Of a stretch of DNA of 51,206 bases, positions 19,023 through 46,084 are shown one piece after another. The DNA is from Paracoccaceae bacterium (GTDB taxonomy: Bacteria > Pseudomonadota > Alphaproteobacteria > Rhodobacterales > Rhodobacteraceae), in the NCBI GenBank assembly GCA_947371955.1, contig CANBRQ010000010.1:1-51206 (forward strand), given 5' to 3'. The translations under genes and the position numbers were made by a program. The stretch's first letter is position 1. Every line of letters starts with the position of its first letter. The notes beneath the pieces are model-generated. The model made no database searches and was not told the origin of the DNA. It saw nothing but the letters and a program-made list of their open reading frames with translations.

Positions 19023-19423
19023 GCCCAGCTCATGGAGCGAAGGCACAATCAAAGTTGCTCACCCTTGCAGCCAACACCCTTCGAATCGAGAGCGCGCCGA
19101 GGACAGACTTTCGCCAATCCCCACACCAAACCCTTGAAGCCGAAAACCCGGCTACAAGATGTTGATGGCCAGCAAATTCGAAGTCTCAAATTTAATTGAT
19201 TTATTTCAGTAGGTTAAGTCTACAATCCTCCAGACTACGCTGCCCGCCCTGCAACTGGCCTGCGTCTATCAGTAGAATTTTCTTGCGCGAACGAAAAAGT
19301 TGGCGCATTTCTACCCGTAGCGCGAAAAGGTGAGAATTTCAGGTTTCTGCGCTACAAAAGAAAAGCTCGAAAAGAGCGCGCTGCGTGTACCTCGGTTGCG
19401 ACAGCACAAAACGTGAGGGCAGT
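19023..19423 (+). promoter_or_regulatory. AT-richer region upstream of repABC with inverted repeat
   Basis: No gene is seen in these 400 bases. GTAGCGC (19317-19323) and GCGCTAC (19349-19355) form an inverted repeat with a 25-bp spacer. Several short GCGC-plus-A-run motifs (19285-19380) follow. An AT-rich stretch at 19185-19225 with TTGATT and TACAAT could be the repA promoter. In repABC plasmids RepA/RepB autoregulate from this region; the exact operators are inferred. Confidence 0.5.
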
Positions 19424-20599
19424 ATGTCAGCAGAGCGAGTATTTGCCGAGCTTCAAACCGACGCATCTACGCTGCACGCGTCCATTCGCTTGCATCTGGA
19501 GCGCAATTTTGCGCCTGACGCAAGGAAGTATCTAAGAACCTTTTCGTCCACCGAGGCCGCTGACTTCTTGGGGCTCGCGCCCGGGCACCTGCGCAAACTG
19601 CATGCCGAAAACAAGATCCCGGACGTTCCTTTGGACGAGAGAGGCCGCAAGTTCTATTCCGCCGAAGACTTGGGGCAGATCCGGCTGGCTCTCGCACGGA
19701 ACACGCGGGATCCGTCGCTTTATCTGCGTGGAAGGGTCGGGCAAGAACCGCTTCAAATTATCTCCTGCGTCTCTTTCAAGGGCGGTTCGGCAAAAACAAC
19801 GACGGCGGCTTACCTCAGCCAATGGTACGCCCTTCATGGCTACCGCGTCCTAGTGGTCGATATGGACCCGCAGGCGTCGTTGTCCTCGATGACAGGCCTG
19901 CGTCCTGAGATCGATTTCACGCACAAAGGGACCATCTACGACGCAATCCGCTATGACGACCCGCTACCGATGAGCGAGGTCATCCGAAAAACCTACTTTC
20001 ACGGCCTCGATATCGCTGCAGGCGGTCTGATCCTGTCCGAGTACGAAACGGAAACGCCCTACGCGCTGCGCCGCGGTGCTGAGCCGCCCTTCTACTTGCG
20101 TCTGCGCGAGGCAATCCAGTCGGCGGAAGCAAACTATGACCTTGTTTTCATTGATTGTCCGCCACAACTTGGTTTTCTGACTTTGTCGTCTTTGGTCGCG
20201 TCATCTTCGATCATCATCCCGGTTGTGCCCAACTTCATCGACGTGGCGTCGTTGGCGCAGTTCCTGACCATGACATCATCCCTGCTCGACACCATCCGAG
20301 ATGCCGGGATGACGCTGGACTATGACTTCCTGCGTTACCTCGTCTCACGGTTCGAGCCATCCGATGGCCCTCAGGCGCAAGTTGCCGGCCTCTTGCGTGC
20401 AAACTTCGGCAAACGCGTGATGACCGAAACCTTCCTGAAATCGACCGCCATTTCGGATGCTGGTCTGACACATCAAACCCTGTTTGAGGTCGGGCGTGGC
20501 AGCATGAACCGGAACACCTATGACCGCTCCATGGAATCGGTGAACGCGGTCGCGCGTGAGCTGGAACAAGAGATCCACAAAGCTTGGGGAAGGCACTGA
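19424..20599 (+). CDS. repA: Plasmid partitioning ATPase RepA (ParA-like)
   Basis: 391 aa. The start at 19424 follows GTGAGGG. An N-terminal extension with an HTH ('TEAADFLGLAPGHLRKLHAE') is typical of repABC RepA. Deviant Walker A 'SFKGGSAKTTTAAYLSQW' near residue 118, Walker A' 'VLVVDMDPQASLSSMTG', Walker B 'DLVFIDCPPQLGFLT'. It moves plasmid copies apart with RepB and represses the operon. First gene of repABC, one base before repB. Confidence 0.96.
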   Translation: MSAERVFAELQTDASTLHASIRLHLERNFAPDARKYLRTFSSTEAADFLGLAPGHLRKLHAENKIPDVPLDERGRKFYSAEDLGQIRLALARNTRDPSLYLRGRVGQEPLQIISCVSFKGGSAKTTTAAYLSQWYALHGYRVLVVDMDPQASLSSMTGLRPEIDFTHKGTIYDAIRYDDPLPMSEVIRKTYFHGLDIAAGGLILSEYETETPYALRRGAEPPFYLRLREAIQSAEANYDLVFIDCPPQLGFLTLSSLVASSSIIIPVVPNFIDVASLAQFLTMTSSLLDTIRDAGMTLDYDFLRYLVSRFEPSDGPQAQVAGLLRANFGKRVMTETFLKSTAISDAGLTHQTLFEVGRGSMNRNTYDRSMESVNAVARELEQEIHKAWGRH

Positions 20600-20600
20600 T

Positions 20601-21593
20601 ATGGCCCGAAAGAACATGTTCGAAGGCATTACCCCGGCTCAACGGTCTGAAGACGCGGAGATGTCTATTCAGCCGCGTAGTGCAGCGAAAATGCCGGAGG
20701 TATTTCAAAGTGCGGGCCCGATTGCTGCAATTCGCAATGACCTGCGCAGCCTAAGCAGCCGTTCGGTTCAAGAAATTGACCCCGAGATGATCGAGGACAC
20801 CGGTCTCAAGGATCGTTTGGGCAGCTTGGACGACGATGTCGCAGAACTCCGGGATAGCATCGCCAAACACGGCCAGCAGGTTCCCATTCTCTTGCGCCCC
20901 CACCCTACTCTCAGCGGCCGCTATCAGGTGGTCTACGGACGCCGACGGCTTGCTGCCATTCGCGCGTTGCGAACACCCGTCAAAGCACTCATCCGAACCT
21001 TGTCTGATGAGGAAGCCGTCCTTGCTCAAGGGCAAGAAAACAACCTTCGCAAGGACCCCTCTTTCATCGAAAAGGCTCTTTTTGCGGGCGACCTGGAAGA
21101 AGCGGGCTATGATGCAAGGGTTGTGCAGGATGCGCTGAACGTCAATCGAAGCCATACCTCTCACATGCGCAAGGTGCGCGAGGCCATCCCACGCGAAGTT
21201 ATCGAACGCATCGGTGCGGCACCGTCGATTGGCTGGAAACGCTGGTACGAACTTGCCTCCCGCATTCTCGATGAAAAGATCAATGCAATCGCCGTGCACC
21301 CTGCCCCGTTTCCGGCGGGCCTGACGTCTGACCAAAGATTCGATGCCTGGTCGAAGTTGGCGGTGAAAACTGGAAAGAACAGCACAACTCGCAAAGTCCA
21401 GCAGGCACAGTCCGTATTGGTCAAGGCGCAGGATGGCTCGGTCATTGGCACTATTGCACTGCAGAAAGACACGCTGAGCTTTCAGGCCGCCTCCAAAGCC
21501 GATCCGTTCACGGCCTGGCTGCATGGGAACGCCGAGACGGTGTTCCCGCGGCTACATGAAGAATTCCTCGCCCGCTCCGTCAAGCCGGAGTGA
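20601..21593 (+). CDS. repB: Plasmid partitioning protein RepB (ParB-like)
   Basis: 330 aa. The start at 20601, one base after the repA stop, is coupled to it. ParB/RepB N-terminal domain: 'ELRDSIAKHGQQVPILLRPH', 'YQVVYGRRRLAAIRAL' and 'AQGQENNLRKDPSFIEKALF' (ParB boxes), followed by the HTH 'ALNVNRSHTSHMRKV'. It binds centromere-like palindromes and RepA. The 20-bp palindromes at 23039 and 23094 are candidate sites. Confidence 0.95.
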   Translation: MARKNMFEGITPAQRSEDAEMSIQPRSAAKMPEVFQSAGPIAAIRNDLRSLSSRSVQEIDPEMIEDTGLKDRLGSLDDDVAELRDSIAKHGQQVPILLRPHPTLSGRYQVVYGRRRLAAIRALRTPVKALIRTLSDEEAVLAQGQENNLRKDPSFIEKALFAGDLEEAGYDARVVQDALNVNRSHTSHMRKVREAIPREVIERIGAAPSIGWKRWYELASRILDEKINAIAVHPAPFPAGLTSDQRFDAWSKLAVKTGKNSTTRKVQQAQSVLVKAQDGSVIGTIALQKDTLSFQAASKADPFTAWLHGNAETVFPRLHEEFLARSVKPE

Positions 21594-21631
21594 GCAAGCG
21601 ATGCAACGAAAACAACAGAGGAGCAGTGTCG

Positions 21632-21717
21632 GAAAAGAATAGGCCTCCCGAATGGAACCCACCCGGAAGGCCCGCGCAAAACACAGGGCGCCAACCCTGA
21701 GAATGCTCATCTCTAGC
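21632..21717 (-). ncRNA. Predicted antisense ctRNA between repB and repC
   Basis: On the minus strand a promoter-like pair TTGCTT (21752-21747) and TAACTT (21729-21724) with 17-bp spacing would start RNA near 21717. It would end at a stem formed by 21664-21672 and 21642-21650 (GGCCTTCCG / CGGGAGGCC on that strand) followed by a T-rich tail (TATTCTTTT). This matches the position and size of the antisense RNA that limits RepC synthesis in repABC plasmids. Ends are predictions. Confidence 0.7.
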
Positions 21718-21876
21718 CAGAGCAAGTTAGCGCAGGCCCGAATCGCAAGCAACATCGCATCGCGGTGATCTGATATCTTTTATCCTTTATCTGAACAAAA
21801 GACCCAGAACACCGGCAGAAATCTGCGCAAAACGGTCCTCATTCGGACAGCCCTGAACGTTCCGCGTGAATCAATC

Positions 21877-23031
21877 ATGGAACAGATCACATCCACGCCC
21901 ATGCTTCGGCATGCCAGGCGCCCCAGTTTGTCATCGCTGAAATCTCAGGTGCAGACCCCTGCAGCCAACAAGGACAAGCGTTGGCACATCCTTGATCTGG
22001 CAAAGACCTGCCGCCAACGACTGAAGCTTCGTGATCGCGACATCGCGGTCTTACGGGGTTTGCTGTCCCTCCTGCCCTCGCAAGCGCGACCTGACCAAAT
22101 GGTGGTCTTTGCATCCAACCGGGTTCTGATTGATCGCTGCGATGGCATCGACGAACGCACTCTTCGTCGTCGGATTGCTCACTTGCAAAACTGCGGGATG
22201 CTTGAACGCCGGACAAGCCCCAACGGCAAGCGATATCAAGTCCGCGGCGATCACCAGGCCGCGCTGCTGACCTATGGCATCGATCTCACGCCTCTTTTCC
22301 ACATCCAGAGCCATTTGGAAGCCTTGGCAGAAGACTGCCGCCACGAAACCGTAAGGATCAAGATGCTTCGCAGCTTGATCAGAGATGTTTTGTTCAAAAC
22401 GCCACCACATGAAATCACTGACATTCAAAACCAAGCGCAAAGGGCACTTAGGAGAGTGCTCGATAGCAATCAGTTGCAGCAAATCCTGTCTCAGCTTGAA
22501 AAGGCTGCACCCGTTATGATCCCTCAATTTACGGACAACGTGACTCTGCCGACAACACACCTGTCCGTCAGCGACGGTCAAAATGACCGGCATATTCAGA
22601 GTTCGTATAAAGATAATTTGGAATCTGAAAGGGCTGAGAGCGAAACTGTAAGCAACCCTGCCCGTGAAAAAAAATCTGCCAACGTAGATCATGCCGACAT
22701 CACAGTCGCTGAATGCATGGACCTTGCCCGAACTGCCAGAGAAATGGCCCCTAAACAGCCCCGATGCTGGGAGGATCTGATTGATCTTTCAACAACCCTT
22801 GCCCCTGCCATCGGACTTCAAGGCACGGTGATCCATGAAGCCGAGAAACACTTGGGCAGACACGGCTGCGCTTTGGCCGTTCTTGGCCTTGTCGAAGCGT
22901 TTGGCAGAGTTCGCAACCCGGAAGCCTATCTAACCGCTCTTGTGCAACGTCGTCTCAAGCAAGGCCTTGATCTCGTCCGAATGTTTCGTTCCCTCGTTCG
23001 GCCCGGTAAGCCAACACCTGCCTTCGCTTAG
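21877..23031 (+). CDS. repC: Replication initiator RepC
   Basis: 384 aa. RepC N-terminal winged-helix domain ('RDRDIAVLRGLLSLLP', 'FASNRVLIDRCDGIDERTLR'), a variable polar middle (residues ~230-280), and the C-terminal helical domain ('CALAVLGLVEAFGRVRNPEA'). RepC initiates replication; in this family the origin lies within repC itself. It is preceded by the ~280-bp intergenic region encoding the ctRNA. Confidence 0.95.
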   Translation: MEQITSTPMLRHARRPSLSSLKSQVQTPAANKDKRWHILDLAKTCRQRLKLRDRDIAVLRGLLSLLPSQARPDQMVVFASNRVLIDRCDGIDERTLRRRIAHLQNCGMLERRTSPNGKRYQVRGDHQAALLTYGIDLTPLFHIQSHLEALAEDCRHETVRIKMLRSLIRDVLFKTPPHEITDIQNQAQRALRRVLDSNQLQQILSQLEKAAPVMIPQFTDNVTLPTTHLSVSDGQNDRHIQSSYKDNLESERAESETVSNPAREKKSANVDHADITVAECMDLARTAREMAPKQPRCWEDLIDLSTTLAPAIGLQGTVIHEAEKHLGRHGCALAVLGLVEAFGRVRNPEAYLTALVQRRLKQGLDLVRMFRSLVRPGKPTPAFA

Positions 23032-29519: not shown

Positions 29520-30719
29520 ATGGGCGTTGTGGAAGTTCTGGATCCGGTGCGGTCGACGCGGGCTGGCGGCTGGAAGGTGGACGTGAGCCGGGGTGAGCGG
29601 AATGGGCGGGTGTCGTCCGAATGGTTCAATCGGCCCGACGATGAGCGGTATCTGTCGCTCGACGATCTTTGGGCATCGGTGAAGGGTCGGTCCGAACGCA
29701 GCCGGTCCCGCGTTGTCGCCACGGCGGATATCCGGGTCGAGGCTGCACGCGACAACCCCGAGCGGTTGCACCTGATCCTGCCGAAGGCCGAGGCACCCAT
29801 CGCGCCCACGCATTGGGCGTTCGGCCAGCTTGCCAGTATCGTCGGTGCCCCGGCGTCCTACCTGCGTCAACTGCCCGCGCCGCTGGCGGGGATCAACCTG
29901 CAGTACGGCCTCTCCAACCACCGCGCCGAACAGGTGAAGACCTTCGAGACGGAAGACGGCCGCACCGAGTTGCGCGCGGTCACCGGCCCAGACTACGGCC
30001 GCATCCACGACCATGAGCTGGTCGAGGCGGCGCAGCGCATCGCGGGCAACGGCACCGGCGACACGCGCTGGAAGGTGCCGGGCGTGCTCGACTGGTCGAC
30101 CGGGGTCTACAACCCCGATGTCGAGATCAGCCGCGACACGACCACGCTCTATGCCTCGGACCGCGACGTCTTCCTGTTCTTGGTCGATGATCACAACCCG
30201 ATTGAGGCGGGCCGGCTACCCGACGGCTCCCCCGATCTCTATTTCCGGGGCTTTTATTGCTGGAATTCCGAGGTGGGTGCCAAGACCCTTGGCATGGCAA
30301 GCTTCTACTTGCGGGCGGTGTGCCAGAACCGGAACCTCTGGGGCGTCGAGGATTTTCAGGAAATCACCATCCGTCACTCGAAGTATGCCGCCTCGCGCTT
30401 TGCCCAAGAAGCGGCACCAGCACTTACACGGTTTGCCAATTCCTCGCCGCAGGGATTTGTGAACGGCATCAAGGCGGCGCGGCAGCAGATCGTCGCATGC
30501 ACGGATGAAGACCGCGATGATTTCCTGCGGAAACGCGGCTTCTCCAAGGCTGAATCCGGCAAGATCATTGAGAAGGTGCTGATGGAAGAGGGCCGCCCGC
30601 CCGAAAGCATCTTCGACTTCGTGCAGGGCATTACGCGGCTTGCGCGCGACAAGACCCAGCAAGATGCGCGCCTCGACATGGAGGGGCGCGCCAAGAAGCT
30701 CCTCGATCGAGTCGGCTAA
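29520..30719 (+). CDS. DUF932 domain-containing protein
   Basis: 399 aa. Recognised by 'LGQLASIVGAPASYLRQLPA'-like sequence near residue 105 (here beginning FGQL), 'RAVTGPDYGRIHDHELVEAA', 'LYASDRDVFLFLVDDHNPIE' and 'YFRGFYCWNSEVGAKTLGMA'. DUF932 proteins occur on phages and conjugative plasmids, often in early or leading regions; activity unknown. It has the conserved leader and a terminator, so it is probably a single-gene unit. Confidence 0.9.
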   Translation: MGVVEVLDPVRSTRAGGWKVDVSRGERNGRVSSEWFNRPDDERYLSLDDLWASVKGRSERSRSRVVATADIRVEAARDNPERLHLILPKAEAPIAPTHWAFGQLASIVGAPASYLRQLPAPLAGINLQYGLSNHRAEQVKTFETEDGRTELRAVTGPDYGRIHDHELVEAAQRIAGNGTGDTRWKVPGVLDWSTGVYNPDVEISRDTTTLYASDRDVFLFLVDDHNPIEAGRLPDGSPDLYFRGFYCWNSEVGAKTLGMASFYLRAVCQNRNLWGVEDFQEITIRHSKYAASRFAQEAAPALTRFANSSPQGFVNGIKAARQQIVACTDEDRDDFLRKRGFSKAESGKIIEKVLMEEGRPPESIFDFVQGITRLARDKTQQDARLDMEGRAKKLLDRVG

Positions 30720-35351: not shown

Positions 35352-37970
35352 ATGACCTTCCAACCGTTGATCCCGACCGTGCTGACGCCGGTCGCTGTTT
35401 CTGTTCTGACTGATCCTGCGACCGGGATCCTTGCCGTGGCCGAGGCCCTGCAGCCCGACCTGGCGCAGGGCTTCCAAATCGACGCGCTGCGCCTGCGGCT
35501 GGAGATGGAGCGCGCCTTTGGCGGCTCAGATGCGGATGGCGCCTGGGACTGGAAGCTTTCCTATGAGGCGGGCGAGGTGGCGCTCGTCCTCTTTCTGCGG
35601 AAATTCGGCCGCGCGCTGCTGGCACGGGTGGGCTCGCTGGGTGCGCTGCTCCCCATCCTCGCCAAGGTGACTTGCCTCCTGCCCACTCACACTAGGCGTT
35701 CGGAGGAGATGGAGCGCTTCCAGCAGTTCTCGACGCCTTTGCCCATGGGGTTGGCGGCTCTGGCGGCAGGGCAAATCACGCCCCGTGATCTGGTCCTGGA
35801 ACCTTCGGCCGGGACCGGACTTCTGGCGGTCCTCGCGGAGATCGCGGGCGGTAGCCTTGCGCTGAACGAATTGGCCGACACCCGCGCCGATCTTCTGCGG
35901 CTCCTGTTTCCGGGTTGCTCCGTCACCCGTTTTGACGCCGCGCAGATCGACGATCATCTGGGTGCCGGGCTGCGCCCAAGCGTCATCCTGATGAACCCGC
36001 CATTTTCGGCTGTGGCCAATGTCGACAGCCGCAGCACCGAGGCGACGGCGCGGCATCTGCGTTCGGCGCTCGCACGCCTTGCGCCGGGCGGGCGTTTAGT
36101 CGCCATCACCGGCGCCAATTTCGCGCCCGATGCGCCAGCCTGGGCTGGGACCTTCACCCGTTTGGCCGAGACCGCACATCTGGTCTTTACGGGCGCTTTG
36201 ACGGGCGGTGCTTTTGCCAAGCACGGCACCAGCTTCGAGACACGGATTTCCGTGTTCGACAAATGTCGTGGTGGGGAGCACGGCGGCATCATCGCCGACC
36301 TCGCGCGGCCGATGTCGCCAGACGTGGCGCATCTTCTAGCCCGGATCACCGCCGAAGTTCCGCCGCGGCTTGAACTGGTACAGGGCACCGCGACCGGGCT
36401 GAACCCCTCTTCCCCTTTGTCGGGAAGTCCTGCCCGCGCCGCAAACACCACAGTCAGCATATCTCGGGCTTCCGCCTCGGCCTCGTCTTTCGGCGCAAAC
36501 GCGAAGTTCGACGCCGAAAATCTCGCCTATATCCTGCGCGAGGTGACCGAAGACGACAGCGCTGCGCGCCTGTCGGATGCGATCTACGAGACCTTCCGAC
36601 TTCAGGCCTTCGACATCCCCGGCGCGGCCCCGCATCCGACCAAGCTCGTGCAATCGGCGGCCATGGCCTCGGTCGCGCCCCCGAAGCCGACCTACCGTCC
36701 GAAACTGCCTGCTGCCGTGGTGCGGGATGGGCTCCTGTCGGATGCCCAACTCGAAACCGTGATCTACGCGGGCGAAGCGCACGGCGCCTATCTCGCGGGA
36801 TCCTGGACCGTCGATGAGACCGGCTACATGGTTTCGGCCGCGCCGGAAAATGCCGCTGACGCCATCTGCTTCCGCCGTGGATTCTTCCTTGGCGACGGCA
36901 CCGGGGCAGGTAAGGGCCGCCAGTCGGCCGGGATCTTGCTCGACAACTGGGCACAAGGCCGCCGCAAGGCGCTCTGGATTTCTAAGAGCGACAAGCTTCT
37001 GGAGGACGCGCAGCGCGACTGGTCGGCACTTGGCCAGGAGCGGCTGTTGGTGACGCCGCTGTCGCGCTTTGCGCAAGGCCGCGACATCCCGCTCACCGAA
37101 GGCATCCTTTTCACCACCTATGCCACGCTGCGCTCCGAGGAGCGCGGGGCCAAGAAGTCCCGCGTCGACCAGATCGTCGACTGGTTGGGGTCGGATTTCG
37201 ACGGGGTGATCCTGTTTGACGAAAGCCATGCCATGGCCAATGCCGCTGGGTCCAAGGGTGAGCGCGGTGACACCGAAGCGTCGCAGCAGGGCAGGGCGGG
37301 CCTGCGCCTGCAACACAAACTGCCCAATGCCCGTGTGGTATATGTCTCGGCCACGGGTGCTACGACGGTGCACAACCTCGCCTATGCACAGCGGCTCGGA
37401 CTTTGGGGAGGGGAAGATTTCCCCTTCGCAACGCGAGCCGAATTCGTCGAGGCAATCGAGGCAGGCGGGGTCGCCGCCATGGAGGTTCTCGCCCGCGACC
37501 TGCGGTCTCTTGGTCTCTACACCGCCCGGTCGCTCTCCTATGACGGTGTCGAATACGAGATGCTAGTTCACGCTCTCAGCCCGGAGCAGCGCAGCATCTA
37601 CGATGCCTATGCCGGGGCCTTCGCCATCATCCACAACAACCTGGCCGCCGCGATGGAGGCCGCCAACATCACGGGTGAAAGTGGAGGCACCCTCAACCGA
37701 CAGGCCAAGTCCGCCGCGCGCTCGGCCTTCGAGTCCGCCAAGCAGCGCTTCTTCGGCCATCTCCTGACCTCGATGAAAACCCCCACGCTGATCGCCACCA
37801 TCGAGGCCGATCTGGCCGCTGGCCATGCGGCCGTCATCCAGATCGTCTCGACCGGAGAGGCGCTGATGGAACGCCGCTTGTTGGAGATCCCGACCGAGGA
37901 GTGGAATGACATCCGCGTCGACATCACCCCGCGGGAATATGTGTTATCCGGAGCTCCGGATAAAACGTAA
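35352..37970 (+). CDS. Strawberry-notch-type methylase/helicase, N-terminal part (interrupted)
   Basis: 872 codons open. Residues ~130-320 form a methyltransferase-like domain ('LVLEPSAGTGLLAVLAEIAG' and 'VILMNPPFSAV' = NPPF motif). Residues ~510-830 are the SF2 helicase first lobe: Walker A 'GDGTGAGKGRQSAGILLDNW', 'DGVILFDESHAMAN' (DESH box) and 'VVYVSATGATTVHNLAYAQR' (motif III). Native sequence ends at '...DITPREYV' (about 37943). The next eight codons and TAA come from the inserted RIT element. The second helicase lobe continues in frame-compatible form at ~44303. Such SBNO-like proteins are standard on large alphaproteobacterial plasmids; role unknown. The split protein probably lacks ATPase-driven activity unless the two halves associate. 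Confidence 0.9.
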   Translation: MTFQPLIPTVLTPVAVSVLTDPATGILAVAEALQPDLAQGFQIDALRLRLEMERAFGGSDADGAWDWKLSYEAGEVALVLFLRKFGRALLARVGSLGALLPILAKVTCLLPTHTRRSEEMERFQQFSTPLPMGLAALAAGQITPRDLVLEPSAGTGLLAVLAEIAGGSLALNELADTRADLLRLLFPGCSVTRFDAAQIDDHLGAGLRPSVILMNPPFSAVANVDSRSTEATARHLRSALARLAPGGRLVAITGANFAPDAPAWAGTFTRLAETAHLVFTGALTGGAFAKHGTSFETRISVFDKCRGGEHGGIIADLARPMSPDVAHLLARITAEVPPRLELVQGTATGLNPSSPLSGSPARAANTTVSISRASASASSFGANAKFDAENLAYILREVTEDDSAARLSDAIYETFRLQAFDIPGAAPHPTKLVQSAAMASVAPPKPTYRPKLPAAVVRDGLLSDAQLETVIYAGEAHGAYLAGSWTVDETGYMVSAAPENAADAICFRRGFFLGDGTGAGKGRQSAGILLDNWAQGRRKALWISKSDKLLEDAQRDWSALGQERLLVTPLSRFAQGRDIPLTEGILFTTYATLRSEERGAKKSRVDQIVDWLGSDFDGVILFDESHAMANAAGSKGERGDTEASQQGRAGLRLQHKLPNARVVYVSATGATTVHNLAYAQRLGLWGGEDFPFATRAEFVEAIEAGGVAAMEVLARDLRSLGLYTARSLSYDGVEYEMLVHALSPEQRSIYDAYAGAFAIIHNNLAAAMEAANITGESGGTLNRQAKSAARSAFESAKQRFFGHLLTSMKTPTLIATIEADLAAGHAAVIQIVSTGEALMERRLLEIPTEEWNDIRVDITPREYVLSGAPDKT
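37944..37963. repeat. 20-bp perfect palindrome at left element junction
   Basis: TTATCCGGAGCTCCGGATAA is self-complementary. It lies between the broken helicase gene and the left 170-bp inverted repeat and has no counterpart at the right junction. It could be a recombination core, a terminator-like hairpin or a scar of an earlier insertion. Confidence 0.7.
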
Positions 37971-38137
37971 TATGCCGCGTCCGCGTTATGCAGAGCGCGG
38001 CGCTTCATGTCGTTGATATGCTGATTCATTTTGGGATCTCCACTTGGCATAATCATGATGCCTCTGCTCTCAACCGCAGAAGGACACCCCGACATGACCT
38101 CCCCCTCCTCTCACCCCGGCGGCACGACAGCCGCCGG
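37968..38137 (+). repeat. Left 170-bp inverted repeat of RIT element
   Basis: Begins TAATATG and ends CGCCGG; matches the reverse complement of 44129-44298 at 168 of 170 positions by eye. It contains the ATG of the first recombinase (38094). Confidence 0.9.
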
Positions 38138-39623
38138 GGCCACCGTCAACCAAGCACTTGTTTCCGGCTATCTTGCTGACAATTCCAACTTGTCCGCCGG
38201 GGCCCTTAGCGCCGCCCGGCATCTTCTGAGATGGGCCACAGATCGGCAGATCACGATCAGCGATCTTGATGCGACAGCCGTCGATCGTTTTGCGCGGCAC
38301 CGCTGCCGGTGTGGCCGCTATAGTTCCGCGCAGTTGCGGAACCCGAGCTACATGACCGATGCCCGGAGGTTTCTTCGCTATCTGGAAGGAATCGGCCATG
38401 TCGCCATTCCCGACGAGGTCGCCCCGCTCGGCCCGCATTTGGCGGACTTTTCAGCGAACCTCGCGGCACAGAGCTACAGTAAGGTCACCTGCAGCTCTCG
38501 CATGAGCCAAGCTCGACATTTTGCCGAATGGATTCTGCAAATGCGAGTTCCGGCGGACAGCATCGACGATGACATGGTCGCGCAGTTTGCCCATCACGAT
38601 TGCCAATGCGGAATCAGGACCAAGCGCGGCAAACGGGTTGTCAGCACGGGTGCCAAGGATCGCCGTCGTGGTGCCCTCGCCTTTGTCGCTTTTCTCAGAG
38701 TTAAGGGGTTGATCCCGCCCGCAAAGATCATCGGGCCTAATCCGGACCCAAGGCTCGCCGCTTTCGATCATTGGTTGCGACGTGAGCGCGGCGCCACAGC
38801 GGAGACCGTTCGACGCTACCTGCAAGAATTGGGTCGCTGGCTGGAGCGGCTTGGTACTGAACCGCAGGAATTAAATGCGGCAGTCATTCGCGCAATCGTT
38901 CTGGATCAGGGCGAGGACCGTTCCCGATCGTCAGTCCGCATGACGATAACAGTCCTGCGCACATTCTTGCGTTTCATGATCGGCGAAGGGTTGTGTGCTC
39001 CGTCGCTGCTTCTTGCGGTGCCGTCAGGGGTGCGACGCAGGCTTTCCACCGTCCCAAAGACGATCCCGGCTTCGACCATCGAAGAGATCGTCGCGTCCTG
39101 CGGCACAGGCACAGCGGTTGAGGTGCGGGACCGCGCCATCATCCTGCTTCTCGCGCGGATGGCCCTGCGGGCTGGCGATATCTGGCAACTCCATCTCCGC
39201 GACATCGACTGGCGCGCGAGCAGGTTGCGATTGCACGGCAAAAGCCGACGTGGGGTGTTTATGCCTTTGCCGCAAGACGTCGGTGATGCGCTGCTCGCCT
39301 ATATCGAGGACGCCCGCCCGGTGGTTGCATCCGATCGGGTCTTCTTACGCGTCCAAGCCCCTTTCACCCCATTTCGCTCATCGGCCGAGATCGCCGGTAT
39401 CGTCTCTCGAGTTCTTTCCCGCGGCGGCTTCGTCGGCCTGCCGACCGGCGCACATGTGTTTCGGCATTCGCTGGCTTCGACATGGCTGCGCGGTGGGGCG
39501 GAACTGGATCAGATTGGGGCCGCGCTGCGCCACGCTTCACGCGACACAACCGCAATCTACGCCAAGGTCGATATCGATATGCTGGGGGCCGTGGCCCAGC
39601 CTTGGCCGGGGTACGCAACATGA
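38094..39623 (+). CDS. Tyrosine recombinase, first of RIT trio
   Basis: 509 aa from ATG 38094 (AGAAGGA upstream), the longest of the trio. N-terminal part has two Cys-rich knots ('RHRCRCGRY', 'HDCQCGIRT') and SAM-like core-binding helices. The catalytic domain shows R in 'ARMALRAGDIWQL', H-x-x-R in 'HVFRHSLAS' and the Tyr in 'TTAIYAKVD'. The start codon lies inside the left repeat. The stop overlaps the next start (ATGA). Confidence 0.9.
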   Translation: MTSPSSHPGGTTAAGATVNQALVSGYLADNSNLSAGALSAARHLLRWATDRQITISDLDATAVDRFARHRCRCGRYSSAQLRNPSYMTDARRFLRYLEGIGHVAIPDEVAPLGPHLADFSANLAAQSYSKVTCSSRMSQARHFAEWILQMRVPADSIDDDMVAQFAHHDCQCGIRTKRGKRVVSTGAKDRRRGALAFVAFLRVKGLIPPAKIIGPNPDPRLAAFDHWLRRERGATAETVRRYLQELGRWLERLGTEPQELNAAVIRAIVLDQGEDRSRSSVRMTITVLRTFLRFMIGEGLCAPSLLLAVPSGVRRRLSTVPKTIPASTIEEIVASCGTGTAVEVRDRAIILLLARMALRAGDIWQLHLRDIDWRASRLRLHGKSRRGVFMPLPQDVGDALLAYIEDARPVVASDRVFLRVQAPFTPFRSSAEIAGIVSRVLSRGGFVGLPTGAHVFRHSLASTWLRGGAELDQIGAALRHASRDTTAIYAKVDIDMLGAVAQPWPGYAT

Positions 39624-40531
39624 TGCATCGCCATGTCGACCGCTACATCAACCTGCATCGCGCCCTCGGAAAGGGGTTTGCCAAACATGAGAGGTCCTTG
39701 CGCGAGTTCGCCGCATTTGCTGCTGACCGGACCGATCCGCATGTAACTGCGGCACTGATCCTCGAGTGGGCGGGAAGCGCGGCCACGCCCAATTCAGCGC
39801 AAGACCGGTATGATCATGCTCGCGCCTTCGCGATGTTCCTGCATGCAGAGGACGTGCAACATGAGGTTCCAGTCGCAGGATTGTTCGGGCGGTCAAGACG
39901 CCGCCGACCCGCTCCCCACATTCTGTTGCAAGACCAGATCAATGGCATCCTGGCGGAGGCGCTTCTGGTTCCTGGCCTGTCCCCGATCAGCCCGCAGACC
40001 TATCACACGCTGTTCGGATTGCTGGCCTCGACAGGTCTGCGCATCTCGGAAGCTTTGTCCCTCCGTTGTGCTGACCTGGGGGAAGACGGCCTTTTGATCC
40101 GCAAGGGTAAATTTGGCAAGAGCCGCCTCGTCCCTCTTCATGCCTCGACCCGCGCAGCTTTGGAGCGCTATCTCGAGCGTCGCCGTACCGTCCGCGATGC
40201 CGGTCATGACCTTTTCGTGCTCGGCCACGGTCATGCACCGACGGCGACAAGGGCACACGTGGTCTTCGTGCGGATCGTGCGCAAACTCGGCTATCGCAGT
40301 CCGACAGGTCCCGGGCCCCGGCTGCACGATTTGCGCCACACCTTCGCAGTTCGGTCCCTTGAATCCTGCGGAAACGATCCGCAGTCGGTCTCGCGGCACA
40401 TGCGGGCCCTGAGCACCTATCTTGGTCATGTCGATATCGCCAATACCTATTGGTACCTCGAAGCCACCCCCGTCTTGCTGCAAATGATCGCGGCAAGGGC
40501 GGAAGAGACGTGGATCGGGGGTGCGGAATGA
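39620..40531 (+). CDS. Tyrosine recombinase, second of RIT trio
   Basis: 303 aa. The start at 39620 overlaps the stop of the first recombinase by four bases. Catalytic residues: R in 'LASTGLRISEALSL', K in 'GKFGKSRLVPL', H-x-x-R in 'LHDLRHTFAV', H in 'YLGHVDI' and Tyr in 'TYWYLEA'. XerC/D-like size. All three proteins are probably required together for transposition. Confidence 0.92.
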   Translation: MMHRHVDRYINLHRALGKGFAKHERSLREFAAFAADRTDPHVTAALILEWAGSAATPNSAQDRYDHARAFAMFLHAEDVQHEVPVAGLFGRSRRRRPAPHILLQDQINGILAEALLVPGLSPISPQTYHTLFGLLASTGLRISEALSLRCADLGEDGLLIRKGKFGKSRLVPLHASTRAALERYLERRRTVRDAGHDLFVLGHGHAPTATRAHVVFVRIVRKLGYRSPTGPGPRLHDLRHTFAVRSLESCGNDPQSVSRHMRALSTYLGHVDIANTYWYLEATPVLLQMIAARAEETWIGGAE

Positions 40532-41538
40532 CCCCGCTCGCGCCGGACCTGTCGGCTTTCCTGCAGAAGCATCTGCCCGATGAGCGTGGAGCCAGCCAAC
40601 ATACCATCGCCGCTTTTGCCCACGCGTTCACACTCTTGCTGCGGTTTGCGGCCACACGCCTCAAACGACAGCCTTCTGACCTTGCGATCGAGGATCTCGA
40701 CGTCAGCCTGATCAGGGCCTTTCTCGAGCACATCGAAGAGGGGCGAGCCAATACCGTGCGATCCCGCAATGCCCGGCTGGCAGCGATCAAGGCGTTTTTC
40801 CGCTTCCTTGAACCAAGGCGTCCAGCCTGCCTCGAACAGGCGATGATGATCAGGTCGCTGCCCGTCAAACGCACGGATGTAAAGCTGATCGACTACCTGA
40901 CGAAGGACGAGGTGCGCGCCTTGCTTGCGGCCCCGGACGGCAGAGTGCCGGCTGGGCTGCGTGATCGGGCGATGCTTCACCTGGCCTACGCCGCAGGACT
41001 GCGGGCGTCTGAACTTCTCGCAGTTCGGATGGACGATTTCCCGCGGGGCTCGTTCGCAAACATCCGGGTGCTTGGGAAGGGCCGTCGGGAGCGGGTGCTA
41101 CCGCTCTGGACGGAGACGCAAGCTGCTATTCGGGCTTGGCTGGCCGTCCGTCCCAACGATGTCGGGCCGGAACTGTTCCTGAACCGCGATGGCGGCCCGA
41201 TGACACGGGATGGTTTTGCCTACCGGCTCCGTCAACATGTGGCCGTGGCCGAACGCGCGACCCCTTCGATTGCCGACAAGCACGTGACGCCGCATGTGCT
41301 GCGGCACAGCTGCGCCATGCACACTTTGCAGGCCACAGGCGATGTCCGCAAGGTCGCCCTTTGGCTGGGTCATGCCAGCCTCCAGACGACCGAGATGTAT
41401 TTGCGCGCAGACCCGACTGAGAAGCTTGCCCTTCTCGACGCCCATCATGCCCCGCTGATCAAGCCGGGCAAGTTTCGGCCGCCCTCGGACAAATTGATGG
41501 CTATCCTCGCTGTCGCAACCGGCGCGAAGCCGCGATAG
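40528..41538 (+). CDS. Tyrosine recombinase, third of RIT trio
   Basis: 336 aa. The start at 40528 overlaps the preceding stop by four bases. SAM-like N-terminal helices, then R in 'AYAAGLRASELLAV', K in 'GKGRRERVLPL', H-x-x-R in 'PHVLRHSCAM', H in 'LGHASLQTT' and Tyr in 'EMYLRAD'. The complete catalytic set suggests an active enzyme. Confidence 0.92.
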   Translation: MTPLAPDLSAFLQKHLPDERGASQHTIAAFAHAFTLLLRFAATRLKRQPSDLAIEDLDVSLIRAFLEHIEEGRANTVRSRNARLAAIKAFFRFLEPRRPACLEQAMMIRSLPVKRTDVKLIDYLTKDEVRALLAAPDGRVPAGLRDRAMLHLAYAAGLRASELLAVRMDDFPRGSFANIRVLGKGRRERVLPLWTETQAAIRAWLAVRPNDVGPELFLNRDGGPMTRDGFAYRLRQHVAVAERATPSIADKHVTPHVLRHSCAMHTLQATGDVRKVALWLGHASLQTTEMYLRADPTEKLALLDAHHAPLIKPGKFRPPSDKLMAILAVATGAKPR

Positions 41539-41586
41539 TGGACATTTCACAGACCTGCGCTGCTCCGGGCGCGCCATTCGACAGCA

Positions 41587-41609
41587 GCGTTCCGCCTCAG
41601 GCGGGGCGT
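41587..41609 (+). terminator. Hairpin between the recombinase trio and the convergent cargo gene
   Basis: GCGTTCCGCC and GGCGGGGCGT pair around TCA (10 pairs including G-U), followed by TGCTATT. It lies in the 73-bp gap between two convergent stops and may act in both directions. Confidence 0.5.
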
Positions 41610-41611
41610 TG

Positions 41612-44053
41612 CTATTCCATCACATAACCAAGCGCGCGATATCCAGATCGCCGTTTTGCAGCCATCCTCGCCAGAACGGGCACAGCGCTGTCCACGTAAT
41701 CCACGACCAGGACATCCTTCTTGCCGTCATGTTGTCGGTGCAGGCGACCAACATATTGCGCAAGCGTTCCCTTCCACGCGATCGGCATCGTCAGGAACAA
41801 GGTGTCAAGTCGAGGGTCGTCAAAGCCCTCCCCGATGTAGCGTCCTGTCGCCAGAATCAACCGCTCCTCGTCATCGGGGACATTCAGCGCGGCGGCGGCA
41901 GACTTCCGGTCCTTCGCCGACATGCCACCCCGCAGAACGACCAGGTTCTTCGCAAATTTCGAGAACCGCTGGTGCAGGTAATCCAGATGGTCTTTGCGTT
42001 CAGTCAAGACGATCGGGGAGCGCTTCGCCTCGAGCGATTTCAGCACGTCATCAAAGATCTGATCATTCCGTCCGGTGTCGTCGGCCAGAGCGGCATAGAT
42101 CGCTGGCATCGATGGCCGTTCCGCCATCGCAAGCACTTCAGGCAGTCTGAACCGCGTGTGACGCTCGCGCGCCCGATGCCGAATGCCGCTCTCAGCAGCC
42201 TGCGACCTAGCATGAACCTGATGCCGAACGGGGCCGCATTGCATGAAGATGATGGGATGGTGCCCGTCTTTTCGGGCGACGGTTGCCGACAAACCGGCGA
42301 TATAGCGCGCCTTCGTTCTGCGCGCGACAAGTTCAAAACTCGCCGCTGACAGGTGGTGGCATTCATCAACGATGAGCTGGCCATAGTCCGCTACGATGTC
42401 GTCGACTTCGCCGTTTCTGACCAGGCTCTGGATCAGCGCCACGTCGACAATGCCAGTCGGTTTCCGCTTTCCGCCGCCAATTGCACCGATCTGATTGGGG
42501 TCGATGTGGAGGAAGGTCTTCAGCCGCTCGACCCATTGGTCGAGAAGTTCCCGACGGTGTACCAAAACCAGCGTGTTCCGGGCGCGATGGCCGATCAGGG
42601 CGGAAGCGACAACCGTCTTGCCAAACGCGGTTGTGGCAGCGAGCACACCAGTATCATGCGCGGTGAGCGCCTCGAAGGCACGCTGTTGCGGCGGCCGAAG
42701 CTCGCCAAGGAACTGGACTGTGTCCGGCAGCGGGGTTCCGTCGCTGCGCTGGTCGTCCAATTCCATTTGAGCGCCGTGTTCGGTCAGGATTTCAACCGCC
42801 TCATCAAAGCAGCCCCGAGGCAAGGCGATGTGCCGGGGGTGCAGTTCTGCGCAGGACACCACGCGGGGCTTTCCAAATGTGGGCAGTCGCATAGCCTGTG
42901 CTCGATAGAATTCGGGGTTCTGGAATGCAGCGACCCGTATTAGTTGGGCAATCATGGGAGGGGGCAACCCAGTTCGGTCGATGTAGACCTGATCGCCGAC
43001 AGTCACCTTGATGGTGTCCGGGATCACCACGCCCGCAGGCTTTGCTTTCGGGCGGCGCGACGGGGACATTTTCCAGGGCTCGTCAGCATTTTCATCTTCC
43101 ACCGGCAACCGGACTGCCAGGACCTGACCAGAGGCCTCTGCGGCCGCCACAATGTTGGCCACTGCCTCGGTCGGCATTCTCGGCAGAGTGGACAGGTACG
43201 CCCACTGATCGTCGTATGGCCGCAGGTCCGGATCAAGGAAGACGCTGTTGCCGTCCTTTCGCGCAAAATACTGCAGCGGCAAGGCGATCAGATTTCCAAA
43301 GCCGCCAACGGGCATCGTGTCCTGGTTCGGGAAGAGGCGGTCATAAGACGCAAAACCGATCTCCGGTCGCTTCTCCATCGTCTCCGTGATCAGCGCCGAT
43401 CCAAGCTGACGGGCCGCCCGAGCCGATACCGGTTCGGCGAAGAAGATCCAGACATGGCCGCCATTGCCTGATCGGGACCGTTCCAGTGCAGCAGGCACGC
43501 CCTTCGCCCGACAAGTTTCAAGCTGGGCACTGGCGTCCTCCGCCCAAGACACCTTGTCAAAATCTGCGGCAAGGAACCAACAGGTGTCGTCCCGCAGCAA
43601 CGGGTAGACGCCCGCAACGAAGTTGGCCGAATGACCGTCGCCGCCCCGCAGGTGCCGTTCAATGATGCCGACGTCGGAAGGTATGAACCGCTGATGCTTG
43701 CAGTCTCCGCATTTGACGGTCGGCTTTCCGCAGATGCCTTTCACCCATTCATTGAAGCAGGCGGGCGAATACCCGGCGCGCCCTGTCTTGCGGTTTTCCC
43801 ATCGCACTGGGAATACGTCCTGGCGGCCAGAAAACAGGCGACGGAACAGTTCGACCTTTTCGTCCGATGTCGACGTGTTCGTGACCGGGGCGTTTTCGAA
43901 TGACGGACGCTTAGTTTGTGCCGTTGTTTCTGCGGCCTGCTGGGACTCCAACGCCGAAAGAGCCTGGTGAAGCTGCCGTTGCTCTTCAGCCAACTCGGCA
44001 AGTCGCGCCCGAACCCGCGCCAGTTCTGTTGCCGTGCTGCTGTTATCCACCAC
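41612..44053 (-). CDS. TOTE-type archaeo-eukaryotic primase fused to SF2 helicase
   Basis: 813 aa from GTG 44053. Order: coiled coil (residues ~10-45), a Cys-containing segment ('KCGDCKHQRFIPSD'), then the AEP primase core with 'WFLAADFDKVSW' (D-x-D) and 'RSRSGNGGHVWIFF' (the s-G-x-G-H signature) plus 'GNLIALPLQ'. The SF2 helicase has Walker A 'TTAFGKTVVASALI', 'LIVDECHHLSA', 'GLSATVARKDGHH' and motif VI 'VGRLHR'. This is the TOTE conflict-system primase-helicase architecture, thought to act against invading DNA. No companion nuclease gene is visible. A short ORF (MAEFTGGG, stop) with a strong RBS overlaps the GTG start; see findings. Confidence 0.87.
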   Translation of the reverse strand: MVDNSSTATELARVRARLAELAEEQRQLHQALSALESQQAAETTAQTKRPSFENAPVTNTSTSDEKVELFRRLFSGRQDVFPVRWENRKTGRAGYSPACFNEWVKGICGKPTVKCGDCKHQRFIPSDVGIIERHLRGGDGHSANFVAGVYPLLRDDTCWFLAADFDKVSWAEDASAQLETCRAKGVPAALERSRSGNGGHVWIFFAEPVSARAARQLGSALITETMEKRPEIGFASYDRLFPNQDTMPVGGFGNLIALPLQYFARKDGNSVFLDPDLRPYDDQWAYLSTLPRMPTEAVANIVAAAEASGQVLAVRLPVEDENADEPWKMSPSRRPKAKPAGVVIPDTIKVTVGDQVYIDRTGLPPPMIAQLIRVAAFQNPEFYRAQAMRLPTFGKPRVVSCAELHPRHIALPRGCFDEAVEILTEHGAQMELDDQRSDGTPLPDTVQFLGELRPPQQRAFEALTAHDTGVLAATTAFGKTVVASALIGHRARNTLVLVHRRELLDQWVERLKTFLHIDPNQIGAIGGGKRKPTGIVDVALIQSLVRNGEVDDIVADYGQLIVDECHHLSAASFELVARRTKARYIAGLSATVARKDGHHPIIFMQCGPVRHQVHARSQAAESGIRHRARERHTRFRLPEVLAMAERPSMPAIYAALADDTGRNDQIFDDVLKSLEAKRSPIVLTERKDHLDYLHQRFSKFAKNLVVLRGGMSAKDRKSAAAALNVPDDEERLILATGRYIGEGFDDPRLDTLFLTMPIAWKGTLAQYVGRLHRQHDGKKDVLVVDYVDSAVPVLARMAAKRRSGYRALGYVME

Positions 44054-44128
44054 CTGTGAATTCCGCCATTTTGTCCCCTCCTCCGACCATAGCGGCCAAA
44101 CGGCTCTGCTGTAAGCATGCCTCTGCGA

Positions 44129-44298
44129 CCGGCGGCTGTCGTGCCGCCGGGGTGAGAGGAGGGGGAGGTCATGTCGGGGTGTCCTTCTGCGGTTGAGAGC
44201 AGAGGCATCATGATTATGCCAAGTGGAGATCCAAAAATGAATCAGCATATCAACGACATGAAGCGCCGCGCTCTGCATAACGCGGACGCAGCATATTA
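44129..44298 (-). repeat. Right 170-bp inverted repeat of RIT element
   Basis: Reverse complement of 37968-38137 with two differences. It contains an RBS-ATG pair (GGAG ... ATG 44237) whose reading frame runs out of the element into the helicase gene. Confidence 0.9.
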
Positions 44299-46084
44299 TG
44301 TCCTGGACTACCTCGCCCATTCCTTCCCGGTGCAGCTCTATGAGCCCTTCACCGACAGCGAGGGCAATCTCTCCTCGCGGCCCGTCATGCGTGACGGCCA
44401 GCCGGTCGAATGCCGCGAGGCCGCGCGCAGGCGTGATGCACTGATTGAAAAGCTTGCCTCGCTGCCGCCCGTGCCGGGGGCGCTCGACCAGATCGTCCAG
44501 CGCTTCGGCACCGATCTCGTGGCAGAGGTCACAGGCCGCTCGCGCCGCATCGTGCGCAAGGGCGATGGTCCTTCGGCGCGGCTCGTCGTGGAAAACCGTG
44601 CCGGCTCCGCCAACCTCGCGGAAACCGCTGCCTTCATGGATGACCAGAAGCGTATCCTGATCTTCTCAGATGCGGGCGGCACGGGCCGCAGCTATCACGC
44701 CGATCTCGGCGCAAAAAACCAGCGTCTGCGCGTCCACTATCTTCTGGAACCGGGCTGGAAGGCCGATGCCGCCATCCAGGGTCTCGGGCGGACCAACCGC
44801 ACCAATCAGGCGCAGCCGCCGCTCTTCCGGCCCGTGGCCACGGATGTGAAGGCGGAGAAGCGGTTCCTGTCGACCATCGCGCGCCGCCTCGACACGCTGG
44901 GTGCCATCACGCGGGGCCAGCGCCAGACTGGAGGGCAGGGGCTGTTCCGTCCCGAGGACAACCTCGAGTCGCCTTACGCCCGCGATGCCCTGCGCCAGCT
45001 TTACCGCCGCCTCTATCGCGGCGATGTGGCGGGCTGTTCACTCGAGGCATTTGAGGATGCCACCGGCCTTAGCCTGACCGATGGCAACGGGCTGAAGGAC
45101 GACCTGCCCCCGATCACGACCTTCCTCAATCGTCTGCTGGCGCTGACGATCGACATGCAGGCTGTGCTCTTCTCGGCTTTCGAGGAATTGCTCGATCAGC
45201 GGATCGAGGGTGCCATCGCCGCCGGGGTCTATGACCTCGGGCTCGAGACGCTGCGCGCGGAAAGCTTCCGCGTCACGGATGCCCGGGTGATCTACACCCA
45301 TCCCGGCTCTGGCGCGGAAACCCAGCTTCTGACCATCGCGGAAAAGCGCCGCAACATGCCGACTTCACTGGCCGATGCGCTCGACTGGCTGGATGACCCC
45401 AAGGCGCGGCTTCTGGTCAACAGCCGCTCTGGCCGAGCGGCTGTGCAGGTGCCCGCCACCAGCCTGATGCTGGATGACGGCACCATTGAACCCCGCTTGC
45501 GCCTGATCCGTCCGACCGAAGCCAGCACGGTTCCGGCGAAGATCATGGACGACACCCACTGGCTCGAGGCGGATCGCGTCGCCTTCGCCGCTGCCTGGAC
45601 GACTGAACTGGCTGCGGTGCCGGAGTTCTCGGAATCCACGATGCACATCGTGGCCGGGCTCCTCCTGCCGATCTGGAAGCAGCTCCCGCAGGACGAAACC
45701 CGCGTCTACCGGCTGCAGACCGATGACGGTCAGCGCATCATCGGTCGCCGCGTTTCGCCAGCCTGGGTCGCGGCCACGCTTGCAGCCGACGCGCCGAAGC
45801 TCACGGCCGCTGAGGTCCATGCCCTCGTTCTTGAAGGCAAGATCGTCGTGCGGCTTATCGAAGGTCTGGAGCTGCACCGGTCCCGCGTCATGGGGGTCAA
45901 CCGGATCGAACTCTCGGGCTTCACGGAAACCCAGAAAGATCGCCTCAAGGCGGACGGTTTCTTTTCGGAGATCATCGCCTGGAAACTCAGGCTTTTCTGT
46001 CCGACAGATTTGTCCGGTGTCCCCATTTGCGGGTCCCTTCTTGCGCGGTTTCCGATCCTCGCCCTAGAGCCTCGGCATGGCTGA
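44237..46084 (+). CDS. Strawberry-notch-type helicase, C-terminal part (interrupted)
   Basis: 615 aa if started at ATG 44237 in the element's right repeat (GTGGAGAT upstream). The first ~22 residues (MNQHINDMKRRALHNADAAY) are element-derived, then native sequence begins 'LDYLAHSFPVQLYEPFTDSE'. Helicase second lobe: 'KRILIFSDAGGTGRSYHADL' and motif VI 'AAIQGLGRTNRTNQ'. The C-terminal SBNO domain follows and ends overlapping the toprim gene. Open throughout, so it has not decayed since insertion. Confidence 0.88.
   Translation: MNQHINDMKRRALHNADAAYYVLDYLAHSFPVQLYEPFTDSEGNLSSRPVMRDGQPVECREAARRRDALIEKLASLPPVPGALDQIVQRFGTDLVAEVTGRSRRIVRKGDGPSARLVVENRAGSANLAETAAFMDDQKRILIFSDAGGTGRSYHADLGAKNQRLRVHYLLEPGWKADAAIQGLGRTNRTNQAQPPLFRPVATDVKAEKRFLSTIARRLDTLGAITRGQRQTGGQGLFRPEDNLESPYARDALRQLYRRLYRGDVAGCSLEAFEDATGLSLTDGNGLKDDLPPITTFLNRLLALTIDMQAVLFSAFEELLDQRIEGAIAAGVYDLGLETLRAESFRVTDARVIYTHPGSGAETQLLTIAEKRRNMPTSLADALDWLDDPKARLLVNSRSGRAAVQVPATSLMLDDGTIEPRLRLIRPTEASTVPAKIMDDTHWLEADRVAFAAAWTTELAAVPEFSESTMHIVAGLLLPIWKQLPQDETRVYRLQTDDGQRIIGRRVSPAWVAATLAADAPKLTAAEVHALVLEGKIVVRLIEGLELHRSRVMGVNRIELSGFTETQKDRLKADGFFSEIIAWKLRLFCPTDLSGVPICGSLLARFPILALEPRHG

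Follow-up and report, generated by a model that had tools for sequence, protein, structure and literature searches.

The stretch of 51,206 nucleotides (nt) analysed here, hereafter the window (positions 1 to 51,206 of contig CANBRQ010000010.1, assembly GCA_947371955.1, Paracoccaceae bacterium), holds three overlapping tyrosine recombinase genes and a primase-helicase gene between long inverted repeats, which raises the questions whether this block is a recurring mobile unit or a one-off insertion, and what the primase-helicase does within it. From comparison with other plasmids and genomes, the unit is considered real, recurrent and mobile, the strongest new points being its transfer as one unit, a fixed target gene that appears to be preserved upon insertion, and a rule connecting the 6-bp cores at its junctions.

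Architecture of the element

Judged by its gene content and its ends, the block of about 6.3 kb is a composite RIT transposon, consisting of the recombinase trio and an AEP primase-helicase (here termed AEPh) inside inverted repeats that are 5,991 nt apart:

37965-38137, no strand: left inverted repeat, 173 nt, holding the RitA start
38094-39623, plus strand: tyrosine recombinase RitA, 509 residues (Pfam Phage_integrase PF00589, 1.3e-19)
39620-40531, plus strand: tyrosine recombinase RitB (PF00589, 2e-17)
40528-41538, plus strand: tyrosine recombinase RitC, 336 residues (PF00589, 2.9e-31)
41612-44050, minus strand: AEPh, 812 residues, with an AEP primase domain, a cysteine-rich stretch and an XPB/RadD-like SF2 helicase (Pfam and structure matches)
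44129-44301, no strand: right inverted repeat, 173 nt, 98% complementary to the left repeat

The original prediction had recognized a RIT element with a convergent AEP primase/SF2 helicase as cargo, and its coordinates prove correct to within 3 nt. The three adjacent recombinase genes, all matching PF00589, overlap by 4 nt each (ATGA at RitA/RitB and RitB/RitC), the repeats are terminal, a palindrome is present at one end, and the AEPh gene (start GTG, picked by comparison with annotated relatives) lies between RitC and the right repeat, thus inside the element. Two features go beyond that prediction: the element splits a gene for a strawberry-notch (SNO) helicase, and the palindrome, of 20 bp, is situated at the left junction (37944-37963). 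The window's own genome contains one copy of the element.

Transfer between plasmids

Four organisms bear two copies each, located on two different plasmids: Gemmobacter fulvus, Pukyongiella litopenaei, D. shibae DFL 12 and Sagittula MA-2. From repeat to repeat, the partners in these same-cell pairs are 99.98, 100, 99.98 and 99.98% identical, whereas the adjacent 1.4 kb show identities of 84.5, 90.4, 89.3 and 53.2% on the side of the SNO N half (the last flank holding another RIT) and of 85.5, 90.2, 90.7 and 82.1% on the side of the C half. Moreover, the orientation of the element relative to SNO is opposite between partners in all four pairs. Near-identical elements in diverged flanks imply that the block moves as one unit between plasmids, so that trio and AEPh are, on this comparison, mobile together and in either orientation, in agreement with the composite unit initially proposed. 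Identical copies in one cell might also result if two SNO genes exchanged sequence by homologous recombination or gene conversion, in line with all scored copies sharing one site in homologous genes. This explanation is very improbable and was rejected, since the copies are inverted in 4/4 pairs, the flanks reach about 82-91% (one 53%) beside elements of 99.98-100%, and the exchange of junction cores follows the pattern of a crossover at the inner core described below.

Junctions were scored in 15 copies (the window, L021-L028, L033-L037 and L052). In all of them, the palindrome TTATCC(N8)GGATAA is found on the SNO 5' side, with the trio running along SNO in eight and against it in seven copies. 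Three 6-bp cores matching TAYGTN can be read in every scored copy, namely A between host and palindrome, B between palindrome and repeat, and C between repeat and host, with one exception (A core AACATC, Pukyongiella p2). For the window, junction comparison gives:

37938-37943, plus strand: core A, TATGTG, host/palindrome
37944-37963, no strand: 20-bp palindrome TTATCCGGAGCTCCGGATAA, SNO 5' side
37964-37969, minus strand: core B, TACGTT (read inverted), palindrome/repeat
44297-44302, plus strand: core C, TATGTC, repeat/host

A hop rule in which the recipient's A equals the donor's B and the recipient's B equals the donor's C fits one direction in each of the four same-cell pairs, compared with 3/52 other pairs of opposite orientation and 0.067 per pair for random core draws. 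Two further rules were discarded: a simple one, tried by eye, equating a copy's 3' core with the partner's host-side 5' core fits one pair out of four (D. shibae), and a same-orientation core rule fits none of the four and 3/101 others. The cores would be explained by a circle whose junction reads repeat - core C - palindrome - core B - repeat. Crossing over at core B, such a circle would have to flip the element, with the core native to the new host then located on the 3' side, while the donor copy would remain after the hop.

The copy L023 differs from L021, L022 and L024 in that its palindrome centre is opposite relative to the trio, as if the inside had been flipped between the repeats. 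Compared with the window (38094-44050), the same copy shows a synonymous divergence (dS) of 0.12 in RitC but 0.60 in AEPh, a mosaic suggesting recombination between elements.

Integration into the SNO gene

The target is an SNO helicase gene residing on plasmids, which is split between its two helicase lobes:

35352-37970, plus strand: SNO N half with helicase lobe 1 (AAA_34, PF13872, 9.4e-123), ending in PREYVLSGAPDKT and a stop
44225-44228, plus strand: Shine-Dalgarno-like GGAG in the right repeat, ahead of an outward ATG (repeat sequence)
44237-46084, plus strand: SNO C half with helicase lobe 2 (Helicase_C_4, 4.1e-98), open from the repeat ATG: MNQHINDMKRRALHNADAAYYV/LDYLAHSFP

All 15 scored copies are inserted at one SNO codon pair, Tyr-Val (TAYGTN). 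Related plasmids possess the empty site in a whole SNO gene (L039-L041), two more empty sites occur in SNO genes with a broken frame at another place (L042, L043), and all five read GA-TAYGTN-YTGGAYTAY. The stop of the N half is positioned 6 nt into the element in 12/12 scored copies (L033, L036 and L037 unscored), and the frame of the C half is open into the repeat in 15/15, with an ATG 22 codons upstream that is preceded by GGAG, GGAA or GGGA. Among 18 distinct repeat ends (of 30), the outward frame is free of stops throughout, while each of the other two frames has stops in all 18; differences between pairs of repeat ends distribute as 382/548/771 over the three codon positions. Bare RITs at the same SNO site (L044, L154) have a different repeat sequence, the window repeat giving no blastn match against L044, yet likewise provide an in-frame restart (aaggag...ATG, AEYVL/DYLAHSFP), and in a third one (L156) a separate SNO C-terminal gene is annotated from 9361. 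The SNO omega amounts to 0.09-0.13.

Both halves of the interrupted gene thus appear to stay readable. From the frames, insertion would split SNO between its lobes without destroying the gene, the element edge supplying the stop of the N half and the Shine-Dalgarno-like stretch plus ATG of the repeat possibly restarting the C half. A repeat restarting the interrupted gene would explain the survival of the element in a conserved plasmid gene. The alternative, in which insertion just inactivates SNO and sites bound by the recombinases happen to leave the frame at the repeat open, is unlikely. A binding-site-like motif, TTATGCnGAG, does overlap the same bases near AEPh in many copies, a count given without a background rate, and recurs in tandem at a spacing of 17 bp (by reading). 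However, frame, length and ATG are retained in 15/15 copies, and the different repeat of the bare RITs L044 and L154 gives an in-frame restart as well.

A second, unrelated RIT trio is also found in the same SNO gene (L034 3-4045, L036 10286-14292, L156 1712-5297), so that SNO is a target for at least two kinds of RIT.

Occurrence in plasmids and genomes

When a 6.5-kb query was searched against 72,556 plasmid records, 314 matched, 17 of them with at least 80% in one place. Six of these 17 come from three D. shibae strains and agree in their identities and almost in their positions (DFL 12 was read), giving 13 distinct copies. In tblastn searches, RitA is present at 60% identity or more in 17 plasmid records, all of which also encode AEPh (13 without the D. 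shibae duplicates). Below 60% identity, one of the 43 RitA records listed (Rhizobium CB3090) is among the 60 AEPh records listed, a further 40 AEPh and 29 RitA records being beyond the matches listed. Within 390 genomes of the order, RitA was detected at 12 places; AEPh lies about 2 kb away at all six strong ones, no AEPh was found at the limit used in the genomes with the six weak ones, and four genomes have AEPh without a strong trio. A class-wide search of 385 genomes with strict limits added one RitA (G603, E 2e-127) and six AEPh genomes, none of them shared.

Recurrence of the composite, for which the original prediction had proposed a genome search, is thereby established (17/17 plasmid records and 6/6 strong RitA places carry AEPh), and a one-off insertion is rejected. 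The opposing outcome envisaged there, homologous trios lacking the cargo, does not apply to close trios. The more distant trios at SNO genes are bare (L044, L154, L156), which suggests that the cargo was acquired or lost in individual RIT lineages. No extra conserved gene between the repeats is annotated across the fetched copies, L037 having one hypothetical gene of 144 nt and an IS3, and no cas genes are named in the annotated plasmid stretches fetched around the copies. Two short contigs (L046 1-6227, L110 1-5993) start and end in repeats, as a multi-copy or circular element would give.

AEPh itself is a widespread gene, the composite being one of its homes, as most of the best 80 of 537 genome loci have no visible trio: the same kind of trio accompanies it in six (L047 cut by a contig end) and another kind in two, with many of the 80 loci being cut by contig ends. 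Viral contigs gave seven loci, four of them weak, and no trio. At E 0.001, 13 of 60 relatives match AEPh, none over its full length; these are distant stretches of helicase or AEP, apart from 35 residues 94% identical to the AEPh C end that are encoded near a contig end in a same-genus genome (L005, G015:C26 10109-10213) and may represent a remnant or a copy cut short.

In a RitA tree of 30 rows, the 14 composites of the window's kind are united in a single clade with full support, whereas the CB3090 composite groups with bare RITs at low support and the L032 group, whose genes are laid out differently, is placed separately. AEPh presence requires three changes on this tree, at least two of them forced by starred branches, with gain and loss not separable; as several long branches meet, the deep joins are unsure. 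Rows bearing and lacking a trio are intermixed in an AEPh tree of 52 rows. Both trees were built without L021, L037, duplicates (L024, L026, L028, L036 and repeated genome-search loci) and rows below 330 residues (RitA) or 700 residues (AEPh), the AEPh tree also without L073, L083, L082-L109 and L111-L131. RITs have probably acquired AEPh more than once, the alternative being one early gain with later losses. In composites of a second kind, AEPh is collinear with another RIT (L032 1156-8650, L059 2651-10139, L054). In L032 and L059, the outer repeats measure about 90-100 nt, and one of the inner repeats of 590-630 nt contains DUF736 in intact form, while its counterpart in the other inner repeat of L032 has a stop; these two composites seem to break a DUF736 gene, as deduced from one flank for L059. 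The Rhizobium CB3090 composite possesses perfect repeats of 95 nt and, from reading its flanks, appears to break a DUF932 gene. A DUF932-like gene also occurs in the window (29520-30719, by reading), with an end (DFVQGIT...) resembling the flank of that composite. In L058 (2575-5276), inverted repeats of 65 nt (88%), their ends being RIT2-like, enclose AEPh alone, which may represent a trio-less form moved in trans. Elsewhere in the window, ParA-like, ParB-like and RepC-like genes in a row (19385-23031, by reading of translations) make the contig look like a repABC plasmid.

Role of the primase-helicase

AEPh matches the Pfam families AEP-TOTE (PF22548, 3.6e-96), ResIII (2.6e-21) and Helicase_C (3.9e-6); its AEP domain matches the solved core of a CRISPR PrimPol (7nqd, 2.9e-11) and its helicase part structures of XPB and RadD. 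Two alignments of diverse homologues (34 and 35 sequences, the window included) show D163 and D165 (DxD), H199 (GNGGHVW), G477 and K478 (Walker stretch) and the DECHH box to be invariant. With omega values of 0.07-0.10, compared with 0.15-0.31 for RitA, 0.10-0.16 for RitB and 0.08-0.10 for RitC (dS exceeding 1 in wider pairs), AEPh is, by these ratios, under purifying selection.

The assignment of the cargo to the TOTE conflict systems does not hold. TOTE stands for TPR, OB, TBP and Effector (PMC12458937), and the name stems in this case from the Pfam domain: between the repeats, genes are supported for the trio and AEPh alone, the TPR, OB and TBP partners being missing from the element, and membership in a TOTE system was thus rejected. 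Furthermore, among 97 scanned neighbours (of 206 nearest ones) of trio-less AEPh relatives, TPR, TBP and OB are absent from the 25 families shown of 76, the commonest families being DUF4143/AAA, TniB, TniQ and AbiEii.

AEPh could nevertheless be a defence or DNA-exclusion gene with the RIT as vehicle, forming a mobile defence cassette, an explanation that is tenable but falls somewhat short of an even chance. The PADLOC PrimPol model matches AEPh (3.6e-89), PADLOC finds PDC-S01 in five and AbiEii in two of the 97 neighbours, an E. coli relative adjoins AlpA and YfjI genes, and an AEP of an integrative and conjugative element lowers DNA uptake in Thermus (PMC7693054). These neighbour counts have no background rate, however, the TOTE partners are missing, and AEPh reaches 86.5 bits with the NCBIfam model for CRISPR PrimPol (NF040561), below its cut-off of 200.

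Rather doubtful, though by no means negligible, is a role of AEPh as part of the transposition machinery, priming and unwinding an intermediate, either single-stranded or bridged, along a copy-out copy-in route of the type proposed for strand-biased circularizing elements (SEs). In line with this, AEPh is the sole extra gene and always within the repeats in copies with both ends, and the sequence upstream of it is one copy of the repeat whose other copy contains the RitA start, suggesting common control of both genes. The element is still present in both partners of each same-cell pair, and for SEs and Tn554 a copy-out route with a 6-bp record of the donor is reported (PMC10214605). In addition, the three presence changes on the RitA tree and the second composite layout suggest more than one capture, gain and loss being inseparable. 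Yet bare RITs also occupy SNO genes and move without AEPh, relatives of AEPh that show no trio occur widely (trio in 8/80 loci, many cut by contig ends), and the Ppol of T. thermophilus had no effect on element replication (PMC7693054). AEPh also outlives the trio: in five loci (L029, L030, L038, L049, L050; L146 and L147 carry the same proteins as two of them), the trio is lost or broken and the AEPh-side repeat kept, with AEPh being a full single open reading frame in 5/5, whereas no close trio without AEPh was found in the plasmid records and the 390 genomes of the order. This asymmetry favours a benefit apart from transposition, and we lean towards AEPh as plasmid-benefiting cargo rather than a copying aid. 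Retaining its catalytic residues, AEPh would benefit the plasmid or cell in its own right, most likely as defence/exclusion or repair cargo directed at single-stranded DNA that is foreign or damaged.

Unit mobility of the composite RIT, targeting of the SNO site, the flipping hop at core B, the gene-preserving split and AEPh as beneficial cargo make up a joint reading that is reasonably probable. Several points weigh against it. Circles, hopping and restart are deduced here from sequence comparison, and no defence assay on AEPh was found in the open literature. The hop rule was derived from the four pairs it explains and so calls for independent data, opposite orientation in all four pairs has by itself a chance of 1 in 8, and L023 suggests that orientation could also change by recombination between repeats. 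A sixteenth SNO copy outside the count (L048 8751-15034) has the same C side and the palindrome on the N side, but a different 5' side and cores unlike TAYGTN (GCGTGC and GCTTGC, by reading); the G344 copy (L135/L145), unscored at its junctions, is likewise outside the count, and L045, L046, L047 and L110 have no flanks. In L021, RitA, RitC, AEPh and the SNO N half are all broken. Concerning the split gene, the N-half stop of the bare RIT L044 lies 78 nt in, off the edge, a motif search found no restart in L156 or L145, and the SNO omega may predate the insertion and does not establish a function of the split protein. Concerning the cargo, five other close AEPh loci (L051, L053, L060, L061, L067) have neither trio nor repeat, and the trio-less loci came from an AEPh-based search, which favours AEPh retention.

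A bolder generalization is improbable at present: RITs of this kind would be gene-preserving, orientation-flipping and copy-making, every hop inverting at the inner core of a palindromic junction, the repeat serving at once as recombinase site, upstream region of RitA and AEPh and restart, and the captured primase-helicase, probably acquired more than once, completing the copying. A primase-helicase found repeatedly inside RIT repeats points to a real partnership.

Comparison with known systems

Searches of open papers yielded neither a RIT described as carrying a primase-helicase nor SNO described as a RIT target; the two original RIT papers (Van Houdt 2009, Ricker 2013) are outside this scope, so that priority is not certain. 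RIT elements are described as having two core-binding domains in RitA and an extra C-terminal helix in RitC (PMC8138268). Two identical RIT copies from D. shibae, with a deduced RIT length of about 3.5 kb, are listed in PMC3414803, probably the D. shibae pair of the present clade; neither 'primase' nor 'helicase' occurs in the main text of that paper. RIT movement was unproven in this 2012 work and the need for three recombinases unexplained, and the four natural near-identical pairs with readable donor marks now give a concrete, testable hop model.

The RITs of Cupriavidus metallidurans CH34 and pHG1 share with the window element the overlapping RitA/B/C, terminal inverted repeats, a palindrome at one end and insertion in genes. 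In contrast to known RITs, the element is 6.3 instead of about 3.5 kb long, has repeats of about 150-180 instead of 28-34 nt, and features the AEP primase-helicase, the fixed SNO target and the in-frame stop and restart. SEs, GInts and Tn554 resemble it in several tyrosine recombinases and may resemble it in donor-recording 6-bp cores and an apparently kept donor (PMC10214605); they differ from it by a fourth small gene (srap/ginD/tnpC), which is absent among the genes annotated between the repeats, as well as by the symmetric palindromic junction, the orientation flip and the different core rule (4/4 pairs, post hoc) of the window element.

Regarding the cargo, TOTE systems have the AEP domain PF22548 in common with AEPh, whereas their TPR, OB/CSD and TBP genes are not in the window element. 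CRISPR-associated PrimPols (CAPP; PDB 7nqd, 7nqf) of the helicase type have an AEP core related to that of AEPh (7nqd, 2.9e-11), one CAPP type consisting of PrimPol followed by helicase (PMC8211822). Unlike these, AEPh stays under the NF040561 cut-off and has no cas gene named in the fetched plasmid stretches. In SCCmec and ICETh2, primase and helicase are separate genes, in contrast to the fusion in AEPh, and the recombinases are of another kind. Like the window element, both SCCmec (PMC7581432) and ICETh2 (PMC7693054) are mobile elements encoding their own primase and helicase.

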